The position numbers and the translations under genes are program-made. 10,704 bases of DNA from Phascolarctobacterium sp. (lineage in GTDB: Bacteria; Bacillota; Negativicutes; Acidaminococcales; Acidaminococcaceae): contig JAKSOJ010000029.1 of NCBI GenBank assembly GCA_024405645.1, positions 1 to 10,704 on the forward strand, given 5' to 3'. The notes beneath the pieces were generated by a model. The model was not told the DNA's origin and made no database searches. It worked only from the letters and a program-made list of their open reading frames with translations. Below, one piece after another: positions 4,153 to 10,704 of the stretch (positions within the stretch are counted from its first letter, which is position 1; each line of letters opens with the position of its first letter).

Positions 4153-4776
4153 ATGAATAATACGCAAAAAAAGTTCTTGATGCTGGTGATTTTGATTGCT
4201 ATTTGCATAGTGACTAATCTTATAGTCGGGGTAACTAATCGTAATGATGATGAACAAAAGATTACTTACTCGGAGACTGAAGAAATTAAAGCAAATAGTA
4301 GAAAATCGACTATACGAATTTATGTTTCGGGTGCGGTGATGAAACCAGGCTTATATGATGTTCCTTCTGATTCAAGAGCAGATGATGCAATTAACATTGC
4401 TGGAGGTTTTACAGAACTTGCTGATACAGGAAGGGTAAATCTTGCTCGCAAACTGAAAGATGGAATGCAGGTTAATGTTCCGACTAAGAAGATTGGTAGG
4501 TTATCAAATAACAAGGTACAGAATCAAGACACTAGGGTAAAGGTTCAAGAAGCCGCTTCAAAAAAAGATGATGTTAAGCAAGCTTTAGTTGTGAATATTA
4601 ATACTGCATCAGCTTCAGAATTACAACAACTTCCTGGAATTGGTCCTGCAATGGCACAAAGAATTATTTCAGCTCGAGAACAGTTAAAATTTACATCTGT
4701 GGAGGATTTGTTACGTGTAAAAGGTATTGGAAAAGCTAAATTAGGTCATCTAAAAGGTCTCGTGAGGGCAGAATGA
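4153..4776 (+). CDS. comEA: ComEA-family DNA-binding competence protein
   Basis: 207 aa. ComEA is a membrane-anchored receptor that binds double-stranded DNA outside the cell and hands it to the ComEC channel during transformation. One N-terminal membrane helix (about 8-27) is followed by a charged linker, a SLBB-type domain (about 53-110: [39 protein letters not shown]), a low-complexity linker, and a C-terminal double helix-hairpin-helix DNA-binding domain (about 148-204) with [19 protein letters not shown] and [10 protein letters not shown] chose the ATG at 4153 because AAGGAG (4141-4146) precedes it by 6 nt. An in-frame GTG at 4132 would start at the terminator and has no binding site. 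The 3' end overlaps comEC by 4 nt (ATGA). A promoter of its own is not obvious. Base composition is AT-richer than in leuS. Confidence 0.95.
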
Positions 4777-6359
4777 CATCATTTATTTATGCGTTAGGAC
4801 TATTTTTTCTTGGAAATTATATCGGTTTATTTTTAGATTTTCTGTATTCTTTTCATAATATTTTACTTTTGCCTGCTGTAAGCCTGATTATTTTTTCTCT
4901 TAAAAATCGAAATAAATATTTGTTTACTTATTCTGTGTGTGCAGTATTTTTACTTATAGGTGTTTGGAATGGTGTGAGAGTAGGTCCTAGTGCTGCGATG
5001 AAATTGAGACCATATTGGAGGAAAAATGTCATCGTAAACGGAACTGTAGAACCTTTGTCATGGAAGGAAAAAGATGGCTTGCAAACTTTCGTTTTAAAGG
5101 TTCGAGATATGGAGCTTGAAGCGGGTAAAGTAGAATATAGACAGTCGATTAGAGTAACTGTTGGTGCAAAGACAAAATTGGTCGATAAACAGGTTAAACT
5201 TAGTGGGAAGCTTCACGAGTTAGTAGGGTTTCGTAATCCTGGGTCTTTTGATAGCAAGACATATTATAAAGTTCAAGGAATAAGTGGAAGGCTTGCTAAA
5301 AGCAAACTCATACATTACAGTGTTAACAATAGTTTTGTGACTAAACTCGCTTTGTTGAACATCGAATTAAGAAGAAAATTGGATGAATGTATGCCTGCAA
5401 GATTGAGTCATTTGCTAGGTGGTATGCTTTTAGGAGGTAGTGGACTAGAGGACGATAGTAGAGAGATATTTTTGGATAATGGGCTAAGTCATTTGTTAAG
5501 TGTTTCAGGAACACACTTGGTTTTATTAGCTGGTTTGCTTGGTATTCTATTTAAACCCTTGCCTGAAAAATGCCAAAAGTTGTTAATAGTTATATTTTTA
5601 GGAGTATATGCTTTGCTCTGTGGCCTAAAAGCTCCCATTGTCCGTGCCTTTGTTATGCTTTTCGTTATTCTCTTTGGTGGTAATGGTGCTGAAAAAGGAA
5701 GGCTACTAGGCTTGGCTGGCGTTCTTTTACTTCTTTTCAAACCTGAATGGATTTTGGACGTGGGGTTTCAGTTATCTTTTGGCGCAAGTTTGGGGTTGAT
5801 TTATCTTTCTCCAAAATTAAAGAATTGTTTTGATTTGTTTTTACCAGAAATAATTGCGGAGACGGTTAGTGTAACCATGGGGGTGCAGTTAATTACTCTA
5901 CCCGTAGTGATTAATAATTTTCATCAAATATCTTTAATATCTATCATAAGTAATGTTATTTTATTACCAATCCTAGAAATGACTTCTTTGCTAACGCTTT
6001 GTGGCTTGCTGCTAGCGTATTGCTTTAATGCTTATGGTTTATTAAAAATAAGTAGTTTCTTTATAGATCAGGTATTGGTGCAGGCAAATATTTTACGTTC
6101 TTTACCGTTTAGTACAATTGCCATTGCCTCCTTGCCACCATGGAGCTATGGACTGTATTATGGGATTTTGGTCCTTTGGCTAGATAAAGGTTTTATTAAA
6201 AATTTGGAAAACCAAGAGAGAAAACAATATTTAGCGGGATTGTCAGCCATTTTTGTTGCTGCCTTTTTGTGGTCGAATTTTCTTCCCAAGCCATTTGCAG
6301 TTTATTTTTTGGACATAGTGCTACAAACACCGATACAATCTAACCGTTTGAAATTATGA
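4773..6359 (+). CDS. comEC: ComEC/Rec2 DNA uptake channel, lacking the C-terminal MBL domain
   Basis: 528 aa. ComEC forms the inner-membrane channel that imports single-stranded DNA in transformation. Membrane segments fill 1-70. A DUF4131/OB-like soluble region (about 78-185) includes GFRNPGSFD. The polytopic Competence domain (about 205-505) carries [17 protein letters not shown] (236-252), [12 protein letters not shown] and [13 protein letters not shown] (329-341). The protein then reads FAVYFLDI and stops 14 residues later. In full-length homologues (about 750-800 aa) this point is FLDVGQGD, the start of the metallo-beta-lactamase domain thought to degrade the non-transported strand. No reading frame downstream restores that domain within the window. 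The start overlaps the comEA stop (ATGA), indicating translational coupling. Most likely the gene was cut by the mobile element to its right. Shorter ComEC homologues without this domain are known, for example in Helicobacter, so some function cannot be excluded. Confidence 0.93.
6300..6345. other. Candidate element-chromosome junction (att) inside comEC
   Basis: ComEC similarity is clear through GAC ATA (6312-6317) and fades from 6318 on. There the expected Gly-Gln-Gly-Asp codons are replaced by GTG CTA CAA ACA and an early TGA at 6357. This is where I place the crossover. The exact core dinucleotide cannot be read without the other junction or an empty site. Confidence 0.35.
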
Positions 6360-7244: not shown

Positions 7245-7715
7245 ATGGCAGAATCTAAAGGAAACGCACAATGTAAAGAATGTGGAAACGTGGTTCAACA
7301 GAAAAAGGGTAAAAAGCTGAAAAAGTTTTGCAGTACTGCCTGTAGGCTAAACTGGTGGAAACATCATCAAGAATTGTTGAATCATAAGGCTAATTATGAA
7401 TTCGTATGTAAAAATTGTGGACAGAAATTTACGGCTTATGGAAATAATCACAGAAAGTTTTGTAGTCATGGTTGTTACATTCAAAGCAGGTTTAGAAAGG
7501 GGTCAGTTATGCAAGATTTAGATAGTAGTGTAAAAGACAGCAATAAAAGGAAGGGCTATACCACTAGAGAAAAAATAGGCGATACTGAATTCATCATAAC
7601 AGTAGAGTTTAGTGAAAATGCTAGAGAAACGCCGTATGAAAAAATAAAAAGGCTTATTCTAGAGGATTATGAAAATTCAAAATGGGAAGCAAGAATCAAG
7701 GATAACCAAAAATAA
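7245..7715 (+). CDS. Two-Zn-finger protein with TnpW-like C-terminus
   Basis: 156 aa. The N-terminal half has two similar treble-clef-like motifs: C10-x2-C13 with FCSTAC (C29, C33), and C55-x2-C58 with FCSHGC (C73, C77). Each reads CxxCG...KFCSxxC, as in DNA-binding fingers of mobile-element proteins. After a charged linker, residues about 103-140 (GYTTREKIGDTEFIITVEFS, then ETPYEKIKRLILED) resemble the short transposon-encoded TnpW family known from Tn4451-like elements: a basic start, 'IGxTxFxVxVxFS', then 'xExxxxKIxRLI'. The role of TnpW is not established to my knowledge. The start is firm: AAGGAGGTG at 7231-7239 lies 7 nt upstream. It follows the HTH gene on the same strand and is convergent with the recombinase operon. 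A DNA-binding accessory or regulatory role in recombination is inference. Confidence 0.8.
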   Translation: MAESKGNAQCKECGNVVQQKKGKKLKKFCSTACRLNWWKHHQELLNHKANYEFVCKNCGQKFTAYGNNHRKFCSHGCYIQSRFRKGSVMQDLDSSVKDSNKRKGYTTREKIGDTEFIITVEFSENARETPYEKIKRLILEDYENSKWEARIKDNQK

Positions 7716-7730
7716 ATCCTTTAAACAAGA

Positions 7731-7768
7731 ACAGCACCACACCAAAATTTTTGCTGGCGTGGTGCTGT
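7731..7768. terminator. Hairpin between convergent genes, likely bidirectional terminator
   Basis: A 10-bp perfect GC-rich stem (7731-7740 with 7759-7768) continues after one mismatch with 3 more pairs (7742-7744 with 7755-7757), closing a 10-nt loop. It sits exactly between the stop of the Zn-finger gene (7715) and the stop of the leftward 133-aa gene (7773). Neither side has a strong U-run, so termination may be inefficient or factor-assisted. Confidence 0.65.
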
Positions 7769-7772
7769 TATG

Positions 7773-8174
7773 CTATTTGGGGTTGATAATTGAATAGTCG
7801 CTGATATTATAAACAATGGCTTTTTGCTTTTCTGAATACTGTCCATTTACCCTGTAGGTATTTCCGATAGGAAGCTCATTGGCAACTATCAGGGAATTTA
7901 CGAACTGTTTGCTTGTGATAACTAACGACCTACCATCATTGGTAAAAAGGTCTGCCGGGACTCTGAATGACATAAAATCAGAAGAATCGCATTCCATAAC
8001 AAGTATGGAATTTCTAGCCTCGTTAACCCTTAAGCAGACATACTCTGGGACACCTAGAAGACGAACAGAATCTCTGTTTACGGACAAGGTGTATTTTTTT
8101 GTGTTGATGGATAAGGATAATACGATTTTCTTCCTTAACCTAGAAGTTTTACGAGGTTTGCTTTCTTCAGCCAT
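7773..8174 (-). CDS. Recombinase-operon companion protein, 133 aa (shared domain)
   Basis: I do not recognise a characterised family. A short basic tail (KPRKTSRLRKK, residues 6-16) precedes a mostly beta-type domain (about 17-128). That domain aligns by eye with part of the upstream 254-aa protein and with the C-terminal half of the recombinase: KYTLSV, then RVNEARNSILVMEC, then VITSKQFVNSLI, NTYRVNGQYSEKQKAIVYNISD. In this copy the usual W before the T-x-x-I step and the M-x-W motif are lost, so it is the most diverged version. It is the last gene of the leftward operon. Its start overlaps the 254-aa gene by 8 nt, with GGAGGA (8185-8190) inside that gene, so translation is coupled. The basic N-terminus suggests nucleic-acid contact. 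It may be an accessory factor for integration or excision, but no function is demonstrated. Confidence 0.8.
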   Translation of the reverse strand: MAEESKPRKTSRLRKKIVLSLSINTKKYTLSVNRDSVRLLGVPEYVCLRVNEARNSILVMECDSSDFMSFRVPADLFTNDGRSLVITSKQFVNSLIVANELPIGNTYRVNGQYSEKQKAIVYNISDYSIINPK

Positions 8175-8931
8175 TGTTGTTGTATCCTCCTGAATTATTG
8201 CTTAGTGGTGGATGTCCGTTGCCGGGGGATTGCCCCAAAGCCTGTTTTTGGGCATCAGAATACGTCTGTCCTGTGTAGCCTTCAAGCTGTTCAAATAAGT
8301 TCAGCTGCTGCCCTTGTACATAGTCATTATAGGATTTGCCGATACGACCTTTATAATCATCAGGATAGTATGTGACAACATGTCTCTTCACTTCACCAGT
8401 TTCTTTGTTGATGAACTCAATAGGCTTTTCTGAGAACATGATAGCTTCGGTGAAATCAAAAATCAATATTACACCTCTAGGAGAGTTAGCAATGCGACCC
8501 ATTATTTTATAACGGCAGTTTCTGTTCCAGCCCATAAGTGAATAGAGCTTTTCTACGAATTCAAGCGAGGTTATAGTCTTATTAATCCATTGGCCATCAC
8601 CTTTAACACGAGCCCATTCTACTGAGGAACTTTCCTCTTCTTTACAGGGGATGACAGCAAGTCTTTTTTTATTAGGATTGACAATGGTGAGAACGTGTTT
8701 AACGCCTTCAAAAAGGCGAATGCAGGACATATTGAAAGTGATTTCTCTATACTTTATGCTGACCGCAGGCTTTTTCAACATAGAGAACTGTGTACGGGGA
8801 GGAAGCTCGTAGCCCTCAAGATCCTCATATTCTAGTTCTAACTTTTGCTCCATACGGGACTTTACAAGTTGTCTGATGAGTTCCTGCTCCTGAATGTTAT
8901 ATGCCTGACCTCCGTTGTTATGTTCATTCAT
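8167..8931 (-). CDS. Recombinase-operon companion protein, 254 aa (shared domain)
   Basis: No characterised family recognised; similar proteins, as I recall, sit beside serine recombinases in other Firmicutes elements. Residues 1-48 are helical and charged (QEQELIRQLVKSRMEQKLELE), possibly a coiled coil. Residues about 56-165 are the shared domain: EITFNMSCIRL, IVNPNKKRLAVIPC, VEWARVKGDGQW, ITSLEFVEKLYSLMGW, CRYKIMGR, GVILIFDFTEAIMF. Residues 166-215 are conserved-looking and charged (GEVKRHVVTYYPDDYKGRIG). The last 25 residues are a disordered N/G/P tail. The start has GAGGAGG just upstream, and the gene lies 19 nt after the recombinase stop and overlaps the next gene by 8 nt, so all three are surely co-transcribed. 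The resemblance to the recombinase C-terminus suggests it binds the recombinase or the same DNA sites; that is inference. Confidence 0.85.
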   Translation of the reverse strand: MNEHNNGGQAYNIQEQELIRQLVKSRMEQKLELEYEDLEGYELPPRTQFSMLKKPAVSIKYREITFNMSCIRLFEGVKHVLTIVNPNKKRLAVIPCKEEESSSVEWARVKGDGQWINKTITSLEFVEKLYSLMGWNRNCRYKIMGRIANSPRGVILIFDFTEAIMFSEKPIEFINKETGEVKRHVVTYYPDDYKGRIGKSYNDYVQGQQLNLFEQLEGYTGQTYSDAQKQALGQSPGNGHPPLSNNSGGYNNNG

Positions 8932-8950
8932 AATGTTTCCTCCTCATAGT

Positions 8951-10704
8951 TTACATTGATGCTAGTAATTGTCTTAGTTCTTGTTCAACCTCGCTGCGGG
9001 TTGGAATTTTGCCAATCAGGGGGTTATCGACTTTAATCCCATCAGCTGTTATATCGTTTTCAGTGATATTGTCAATCAGCCTGTCACGCTTTGCTCTTAA
9101 AGCTAGGCTTAGGCCTAGACTGTCCAAATGGGTGGGGTAGGTATGATTACCCTCGTCCATATGTTTGGTGCCGTCTGCAGAGCTGTCAGCGCTCTTATAC
9201 GTTATGTATTGGACGGAATAATCAGCTGCCTTCTTAGTGTTTTTCCCTACGATGATTTGTGGTTCGTCAAGGAAAAAGATAAGCATCTTGGCATGACCAC
9301 GCTGACGAAAAATTCCTTTGAATTTAAACCTATATTCCTTAATCCAGTTCATATTGGCATAAATGGATGTGCAGAACGAATTAGCGGTAATCTTTGTTGT
9401 GCTGATTCCGTTATCATCCCAAACGATAGTGTTGCTTGTAGGGAATTCACAGGTCCTGATGACAATCGCCTGTAGTATCGGATGATATAAAATCTCAATG
9501 TATTTACTGTTGCCTAGCTTCTTGTGAGCTGCTTTGTTAAAGGTTATGGTTGTTTGCGACAAGGTCATGCTGGCGGTTGAGTTGTTAAGAAAATACACAC
9601 CGTAGGGTACATGGTAGTCGTTAAACTGCATTGAAAGAACCTTGCTATGTTCGGTTCCATTCATAATAGCGGCATCGTGCTTAAGCTGGTTAAACTCATA
9701 GGTGTTGTAGACGCTCTTGCTGATATCGTAGAAAATATTAGCATTTATGGCATTCCAATATGGTGATATGCATACAAATCCTTTTAAAGCACCTTCTGAT
9801 ATTACTGCTATTTCAGATGCACCACAGAGTTTAAGAGAACATGCTGCTGCTGTCTGCGCGGCCTTAGCTATTTCAGGAGTTACAATTCCCTTGTGATGTT
9901 TAGGCACAAACGCTGCATCACGAATCTGAGTGTTCTTTACTATGGTTCGTTTTACATAATCTACTACAACAGTCTTACGGGCGGATAAATCACCCCAACG
10001 GCGTTCGTTTTCAAGTATGTTACGGACCATGCCTGCATTCCAGTTAGTCCTCCCAGTAAGGGTTGGACGCTTTTTGTCGGTAAGTGTTTTAGCTATAGCA
10101 TCAGAGGTAAAACCGCAGATGTAGGCAAGGAAGATAAATCTTACTGTCTTTGCTTCATCCTCTTGTATTACTAGATTGCCGTCTTTGGTGTGTCTATATC
10201 CAAGAAGGTCAGAGACTGGGTATTGTCCTGTGCAGATTCGTTGGTCATAGGATAAAATCATACGACGGCTTTTGTTTGCAGACTCCCAATCAGCAAGCAT
10301 GGCATGCATCTTGAACATCTGGTCACAGTCAGGGTCGAGGGTGTAGATGTCTTCCGTTTCAAAATATACACCTACGGGATGTTGGGGATTCATGGTACGA
10401 AGGGTACGGACCTGTTCAACACAGTCAGATACGTTTCTTGCAAAACGTGATACACTGGCACAGATAATGAGATCCATGGACTTGTCCTTGGCATCCTTCA
10501 TCATGCGCTGGAATTCGGTACGTTTGGTCATGGAAGTGCCAGACTTTCCTTCATCGCTATAAATATCGGTAAGTGTCCAGTTTGGAGTTTTTTCAACTTT
10601 TTCAGTATAATATTTCGTCTGGTTTTCGATAGAGGAAACTTGCTCAGTGCTTTTGGTACTGACGCGGGCGTAAACAGCAACATTCTTCTGCTCATCATCT
10701 TTTA
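8951..10704 (-). CDS. Large serine recombinase, 5' end outside the window
   Basis: 583 codons are visible. The frame stays open to the right edge, so the start lies beyond it, probably only about 5-15 codons away. Numbering from the first visible codon: VAVYARVST (8-16) holds the catalytic Ser15; SIENQ (24-28); YSDEGKSGTS (48-57); SVSRFARN (83-90) carries the conserved active-site Arg. A long E-helix and hinge follow, with KSRRMILSYDQR (144-155), then the Recombinase domain (about 160-285: YPVSDLLGYRH, FIFLAYICGFTSDAIAKTL, GMVRNILENERRWGD, HKGIVTPEIAKAAQ). Such enzymes catalyse site-specific integration and excision through a Ser-DNA link. The canonical zinc ribbon is not visible: only scattered Cys are present (CSLKLC 288-293 and Cys311). 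Instead GALKGFVCISPYW is followed by a domain (about 378-484) shared with the two downstream proteins. It is first in its operon; its promoter is outside the window. Confidence 0.93.
   Translation of the reverse strand, partial: KDDEQKNVAVYARVSTKSTEQVSSIENQTKYYTEKVEKTPNWTLTDIYSDEGKSGTSMTKRTEFQRMMKDAKDKSMDLIICASVSRFARNVSDCVEQVRTLRTMNPQHPVGVYFETEDIYTLDPDCDQMFKMHAMLADWESANKSRRMILSYDQRICTGQYPVSDLLGYRHTKDGNLVIQEDEAKTVRFIFLAYICGFTSDAIAKTLTDKKRPTLTGRTNWNAGMVRNILENERRWGDLSARKTVVVDYVKRTIVKNTQIRDAAFVPKHHKGIVTPEIAKAAQTAAACSLKLCGASEIAVISEGALKGFVCISPYWNAINANIFYDISKSVYNTYEFNQLKHDAAIMNGTEHSKVLSMQFNDYHVPYGVYFLNNSTASMTLSQTTITFNKAAHKKLGNSKYIEILYHPILQAIVIRTCEFPTSNTIVWDDNGISTTKITANSFCTSIYANMNWIKEYRFKFKGIFRQRGHAKMLIFFLDEPQIIVGKNTKKAADYSVQYITYKSADSSADGTKHMDEGNHTYPTHLDSLGLSLALRAKRDRLIDNITENDITADGIKVDNPLIGKIPTRSEVEQELRQLLASM

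Follow-up and report, generated by a model that had tools for sequence, protein, structure and literature searches.

A large serine recombinase variant from Phascolarctobacterium shares its C-terminal domain with two adjacent stand-alone proteins

Large serine recombinases are single-protein tools for genome engineering, and their direction of action comes from a zinc-ribbon and coiled-coil part together with an added factor. The sections of PMC3783163 on a Listeria phage integrase describe a zinc domain that contacts the att DNA and bears the coiled coil used in synapsis. In the part of PMC5814800 that treats phiC31, the directionality factor binds its integrase via the zinc domain. The enzyme part that decides on site and direction in these systems thus appears to be the part that is replaced and copied at the locus described here. 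This locus lies in a 10,704-nucleotide stretch of Phascolarctobacterium sp. DNA (assembly GCA_024405645.1, contig JAKSOJ010000029.1), hereafter the window, which is the entire contig C158 of an assembly that has 235 contigs and is 73% complete. The window encodes a large serine recombinase (R) and two closely packed companions (A and B), and all three proteins carry one common domain. Duplication of the recombinase C-terminal domain into two stand-alone companions, proposed in the original prediction from the window sequence, is well supported by homology, predicted secondary structure, a constant R-A-B gene order and the separate R and B groups of the domain tree.

Relatives were collected by similarity to A and comprise 32 genome loci, 10 viral loci and 19 phage records. 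The viral loci were found with an alignment of A; a viral scan with the A protein of the window alone gave no match. Five of the 19 phage records were read as annotated loci and examined for R and B before the counts were made. Counts refer to 48 loci (L010–L056 and the window), every one of them selected for holding A. The 47 fetched loci exclude the window. MT838295, MT838803 and MT836086, which are linear unverified scaffolds, are left out of the counts.

The three proteins were compared profile to profile with hhalign, using 47 A, 49 B and 41 R rows (including loci from whole-genome relatives) and nine reversed-alignment controls. A matched R at 99.85% (E 1.3e-30, 203 columns), B matched R at 97.2% (E 3.2e-11, 117 columns), and B matched A at 97.2% (E 4.6e-11, 117 columns); the controls reached 2.1% at most. 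Together with the predicted structures of R and B, these comparisons bear out the earlier claim of one domain in three adjacent proteins, which had been placed at bases 9251–9568 (R 379–484), 8437–8766 (A 56–165) and 7794–8126 (B 17–127). The motifs named at that time are present, with M-x-W ahead of the turn in R and A and absent from B. Homology between A and R exceeds the domain on both sides (Table 1), which had been overlooked. As a single-sequence query, A matches the R of its own genome (E 3.6e-5) and the recombinase C-termini of relatives (E 1.7e-17 to 5.5e-16), and it matches 16 of the 49 open reading frames (ORFs) at the B position in L010–L056 and the window at E < 0.01 (best 4.8e-10). 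Window B, searched as a single query against 5.8 billion proteins, matches nothing but itself, so the link to B rests on family profiles. Chance resemblance of R, A and B was rejected by the reversed controls and the single-sequence matches.

Structure predictions were made for R and B and agree in the order of strands (E) and helices (H). The B model has a mean predicted local distance difference test score (pLDDT) of 87.4 and the elements E20–24, E29–32, H34–39, E45–50, E56–61, E69–71, E84–87, H89–98, E106–114 and E119–129. The R model has a mean pLDDT of 73.9, with the block 371–480 at 83–93, and shows E378–381, E385–388, H390–395, E401–407, E412–418, E437–439, H441–451, E458–468 and E471–477; the short B strand E69–71 has merely two-residue counterparts in it. 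The viral top-50 structure lists of the two models have six entries in common, including phage KSY1 gp105; several of the six are weak in the R list, where the aligned R region is not displayed. A fold resembling that of B is predicted for uncharacterised phage proteins, namely BFVD A6MAH0 (Lactococcus phage KSY1 gp105) and those from phages Menlow, PhiSH19 and phiEa2809, with template modelling (TM) scores of 0.52–0.61 by query length and E values of 4.5e-5 to 4.9e-4.

Foldseek against the PDB with the B model gave no match at E 0.001; the top-ranked hits (clamps, guanylate cyclase, PylC, PAS) reach TM scores of ~0.2, and rank 23 is taken by a MraZ chain, a weak match with a TM score of 0.36. 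The first half of the domain scores 24.8% against the AbrB profile (reversed, 1.1%) and the second half 0.8%, while the whole core scores 0.3% against MraZ; MraZ against AbrB, the positive control, gives 86.9%. Profile comparison gives no support for an internal repeat of the two halves (0.3% versus 0.4% for the control). No solved structure is related by sequence to A or B below E 0.1, and neither protein has a hit above curated cut-offs in Pfam, NCBIfam, PHROGs or PADLOC. The median isoelectric point (pI) of the domain core is 9.1 in R, 9.4 in A and 8.9 in B. From this mostly basic pI and the weak fold match to MraZ, the shared domain may bind DNA.

R has a Resolvase domain with the active-site serine and arginines followed by a recombinase domain, as in large serine recombinases. 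Catalytic motifs of the YxRVS and SRFxRN types both occur in all 41 R proteins, that of the window included. The 5' end of R lies past the contig end, and full-length relatives have 608–713 amino acids (aa). The zinc-ribbon cysteine pattern is present in 0 of the 41 R proteins and in 25 of 25 selected neighbouring serine recombinases of 420–640 aa (R query E < 1e-20). This absence, which had escaped the original prediction, makes R a variant and not a standard large serine recombinase. At the ribbon position of the other recombinases, with the register set by eye, R has GALKGFVxxxPxW or similar, followed by the shared domain, which occupies the region of the zinc ribbon and coiled coil in other large serine recombinases. 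PHROG 36765 matches R 341–396 (E 0.0048). R falls below the NCBIfam cut-offs for CcrB (91.4 of 900 bits), CcrA (52.2 of 700) and CcrC (61 of 900).

The order R-A-B is found in 45 of the 48 loci, and B is present in all 48; L051 begins inside A. The gap between R and A, measured in 42 pairs, is no longer than 25 bases in 41 of them, and A and B overlap or lie within 9 bases of each other in 40 of 46. The 19 phage records with relatives of A are of Ca. Heliusviridae/Heliusvirales gut phages, 16 of them annotated and all 16 calling the gene a hypothetical protein; the five annotated Heliusvirales stretches all hold R-A-B. A domain tree was built from 72 of 136 domain copies, with a program warning of long branches. 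It places B in a single group (support 100/99) and R in a single group (93/93). Phage-type (Heliusvirales) and window-type copies split alike within R, within A and within B, and the simplest reading of this parallel split is that the three genes have moved as a set since before it. The domain copies look older than the split, with A poorly resolved. Pairwise identities over 31 loci correlate modestly and are no proof of contact: the C-terminal half of R gives 0.48 with A and 0.51 with B, the N-terminal half 0.45 and 0.30, and the two halves of R with each other 0.29.

A fourth gene, S, overlooked earlier, accompanies the module in relatives. It is an ORF of 158–212 aa for a resolvase-like domain and stops at, or close to, the point where R begins (L010–L050). 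In 37 loci, R is complete and 520 or more bases lie upstream of it; 33 of these have S, and the other four are Heliusvirales phages. Outside Ca. Heliusvirales, S is thus found ahead of R in every checkable locus (33 of 33). Two of the 33 S proteins were scanned against PF00239 (cut-off 23.3 bits): L010 lies above the cut-off (E 3.5e-5, 24.4 bits) and L044 below it (E 2.2e-4, 21.8 bits). S has YxKLA in place of YxRVS, a motif that was also used to pick it, and of its two motif-2 arginines one is replaced by Tyr in 33 of 34 rows and the other by Ala in at least 31, where a single row represents a wrong ORF. S therefore lacks the active-site serine and arginines of a catalytic subunit. The window ends before the position expected for S, and S was not found in the window's own genome, where the contig stops inside R and the assembly is incomplete.

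Table 1. Features of the window, with coordinates, strand and supporting evidence.
Feature	Position	Strand	Evidence
R, large serine recombinase, 583 aa in window	8951..10702	-	PF00239 E 4.2e-25, PF07508 E 8.4e-14
R catalytic domain, residues 8–160, YARVS and SRFARN motifs intact	10223..10681	-	
R recombinase (DNA-binding) domain, residues 181–285	9848..10162	-	
R copy of shared domain, residues 378–484	9251..9571	-	
R longer stretch, residues ~330–548, homologous to A 9–218	9059..9715	-	hhalign
Companion A, 254 aa	8167..8931	-	851 relatives
A copy of shared domain, residues ~54–172	8416..8772	-	hhalign
Companion B, 133 aa, overlapping A end by 8 bases	7773..8174	-	541 proteins by B profile
B copy of shared domain, residues 18–131	7782..8123	-	hhalign and model
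Terminator-like hairpin, 16 pairs, directly 3' of B, between convergent B and the 7245–7715 gene	7730..7769	-	
Zinc-finger protein, 156 aa, TnpW-like end	7245..7715	+	PF14202 E 9.9e-9
Helix-turn-helix (HTH) repressor-like protein, 127 aa	6683..7066	+	
Junction of interrupted comEC and foreign DNA, after ...TTTTTTGGA	6313..6314	.	
comEC 5' part; codons past ~residue 514 are foreign DNA	4773..6359	+	

Overall, we consider it probable that the locus encodes a serine recombinase of several subunits, in which the C-terminal domain of the enzyme recurs as subunits of its own, with S as a further component in relatives. R, A and B (with S in relatives) would be subunits of one serine-recombinase system. 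R would be the sole catalytic subunit: it retains the active-site residues (serine and arginines) and first DNA-binding domain of a large serine recombinase, and a new alpha/beta domain would stand in place of the zinc ribbon and coiled coil. A and B would be free copies of the C-terminal part of R, the products of closely packed genes, and would supply free domains to a mixed R, A and B assembly on the recombination site. There they may act much as C-terminal domains and directionality factors do, binding outer half-sites, holding subunits together and selecting the sites that synapse. S, with its dead catalytic domain, may sit inside the catalytic tetramer or compete for it. We infer a physical complex that performs the reaction and controls its direction. 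The "recombination complex" of the original prediction is a fair inference from sequence; its "three-component" make-up probably counts too few, given the consistent presence of S in relatives outside Ca. Heliusvirales. A more specific form of this proposal is possible, and we advance it tentatively: a serine recombinase split into four or more subunits, pseudo-catalytic S, catalytic R and the detached C-terminal domains A and B. Reading of the outer DNA and setting of direction would then fall to an exchangeable part, and integration, excision or shuffling would be chosen by subunit make-up and not by a separate directionality factor.

Several observations weigh against the multi-subunit reading. 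Another serine recombinase gene above a strict threshold is present in 19 of the 47 fetched loci, with two or more in 12 of these, and could perform all integration and excision, so R need not be the integrase there; the other 28 hold none above the threshold in the stretches covered, which extend to 8 kb or to the end of the contig, with weaker ones in L024 and L025. Gene linkage does not prove contact, L028 and L040 hold A and B without R, and the R genes of L029 (452 aa) and L041 (301 aa) are shortened. In the tree, A does not clearly form a single group (1 change in 30% of bootstrap trees), and some long branches come together. The identity correlations are modest, and A tracks the N-terminal half of R almost as well as the C-terminal half. 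The core pI falls to 6.1 in B, and no convincing recombination site for R was found as a repeat beside B.

A and B might instead be regulators only: bound to R (or S), they would inhibit it or switch direction, much as a recombination directionality factor does, and would not belong to the structure of the active complex itself. This would fit the phiC31 factor, which, in the part of PMC5814800 noted above, binds the zinc domain, the part whose replacement A and B copy. An S protein devoid of catalytic residues likewise suits an inhibitory subunit, but A and B are paired in 48 of 48 loci (A by selection). To our knowledge, moreover, directionality factors generally have no sequence relationship to the integrase on which they act. 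We regard this explanation as unlikely; it is not separable by sequence from the multi-subunit system. We are somewhat less sceptical, though still doubtful, of a module for the early life or replication of an element, which would be expressed along with a helicase-like AAA_25 gene beside a repressor and would resolve or rearrange replicating DNA. HTH genes in 35 and AAA_25-type genes in 29 of the 48 loci recur upstream, giving the order HTH, AAA_25, S, R, A and B, where the strand of HTH is usually opposite to that of the others; the one AAA_25 cluster member scanned gave E 4.1e-24. SCCmec offers a parallel, with a primase-helicase pair that shares its element with serine recombinases. The part of PMC7581432 on these elements reports the pair. 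The AAA_25 cluster is nevertheless absent in 19 of the 48 loci, including L013, L023, L026 and five Heliusvirales stretches, some of the 19 being cut by contig ends. That A and B have left recombination and now serve as transcription regulators built from a DNA-binding domain is improbable.

The DNA around the module in relatives gives some indication of its mobility. In L024, L025, L021 and L027, similarity breaks off 3' of B at a single exact position, immediately following TTGACAACAGGAGG (L024:9407, L025:9407–9408, L021:9420 and L027:9354), and is followed by four differing flanks, as the end of an element would show. One flank adjoins a truncated polysaccharide-synthesis gene (PF01943), and one lies in what we take to be an NDP-sugar (nucleoside diphosphate sugar) dehydrogenase gene. 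In L023, an exact 15-base direct repeat (4743–4757 and 9732–9746) flanks HTH-S-R-A-B, with one copy at the guaA stop codon; in an empty-site check, similarity ended at the guaA stop in three of three fetched relatives, and the right-hand neighbour has no close match within the genus. From such sharp ends, it is suggested that HTH-S-R-A-B is a mobile unit of its own. To the left of the block, L024 holds tandem recombinase genes and presumably a relaxase-like gene, and HTH-S-R-A-B may therefore form just one end of some larger element. L130 (3813–10497) has four and L131 (7658–19136) has seven serine recombinase genes in a tandem array, upstream of an HTH-AAA_25-S-R-A-B block with at most three other genes between.

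Some database proteins have other gene beginnings fused into B (P0124, P0125, P0132, P0145, P0160, P0162, P0169, P0181, P0193, P0198, P0204 and P0219). The beginnings come from R, A, the AAA_25 gene, other recombinases or sugar-enzyme genes, and the join points vary. Some of these proteins recur in several contigs, and they may be real deletions or assembly chimeras.

Elsewhere in the window, the hairpin 3' of B was the one found (shuffle mean 0.4). In L044, L047, L048 and L051, a relative of the zinc-finger protein directly precedes an ordinary serine recombinase gene; no such gene is visible beside it in the window. An uncut comEC allele is found on contig C83 of the same assembly (94% over 274 bases), so the assembly may mix two strains. 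The other end of the element in comEC was sought and not found. On the minus strand, positions 57–1316 encode a 419-aa protein whose tail appears by eye to consist of repeated RPQ/SRPT-type units.

No description of an R-A-B type module was found among open-licence PMC papers. The main text of the 2022 Heliusviridae paper gives nine shared genes and uses neither "recombinase" nor "integrase" (PMC9226167). Among 120 listed relatives of A, the few source names given read "hypothetical protein", and one was an empty string. The module is nonetheless common, as the numbers of A and B relatives indicate (Table 1). The direction-setting part of the enzyme has here apparently been replaced and copied into free subunits, accompanied in relatives by a dead catalytic paralogue, and the choice of partners by serine recombinases becomes testable through subunit mixing. 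Compared with the large serine recombinases of phiC31, Bxb1, SPbeta and the Listeria phage, R differs in lacking the zinc-ribbon pattern and in having another C-terminal domain, and the system differs in its two free copies of that domain and, in relatives, the dead catalytic-domain gene. A and B may be likened to recombination directionality factors such as phiC31 gp3 and SPbeta YotN, which are small element-encoded partners acting at the integrase C-terminal part. Unlike these factors, they are paralogous to the C-terminal part of the recombinase itself and occur as a pair. CcrA and CcrB of SCC (staphylococcal cassette chromosome) and orf56 and orf57 of Phi1207.3 likewise represent more than one recombinase-derived protein per gene cluster. 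According to PMC4260502, a catalytic, a recombinase and a zinc-ribbon domain are present both in orf56 and in orf57, whereas only R is catalytic here. The same source places Phi1207.3 at a GA in comEC (PMC4260502), and its likeness to the window junction is a GA within comEC, at the level of the gene.

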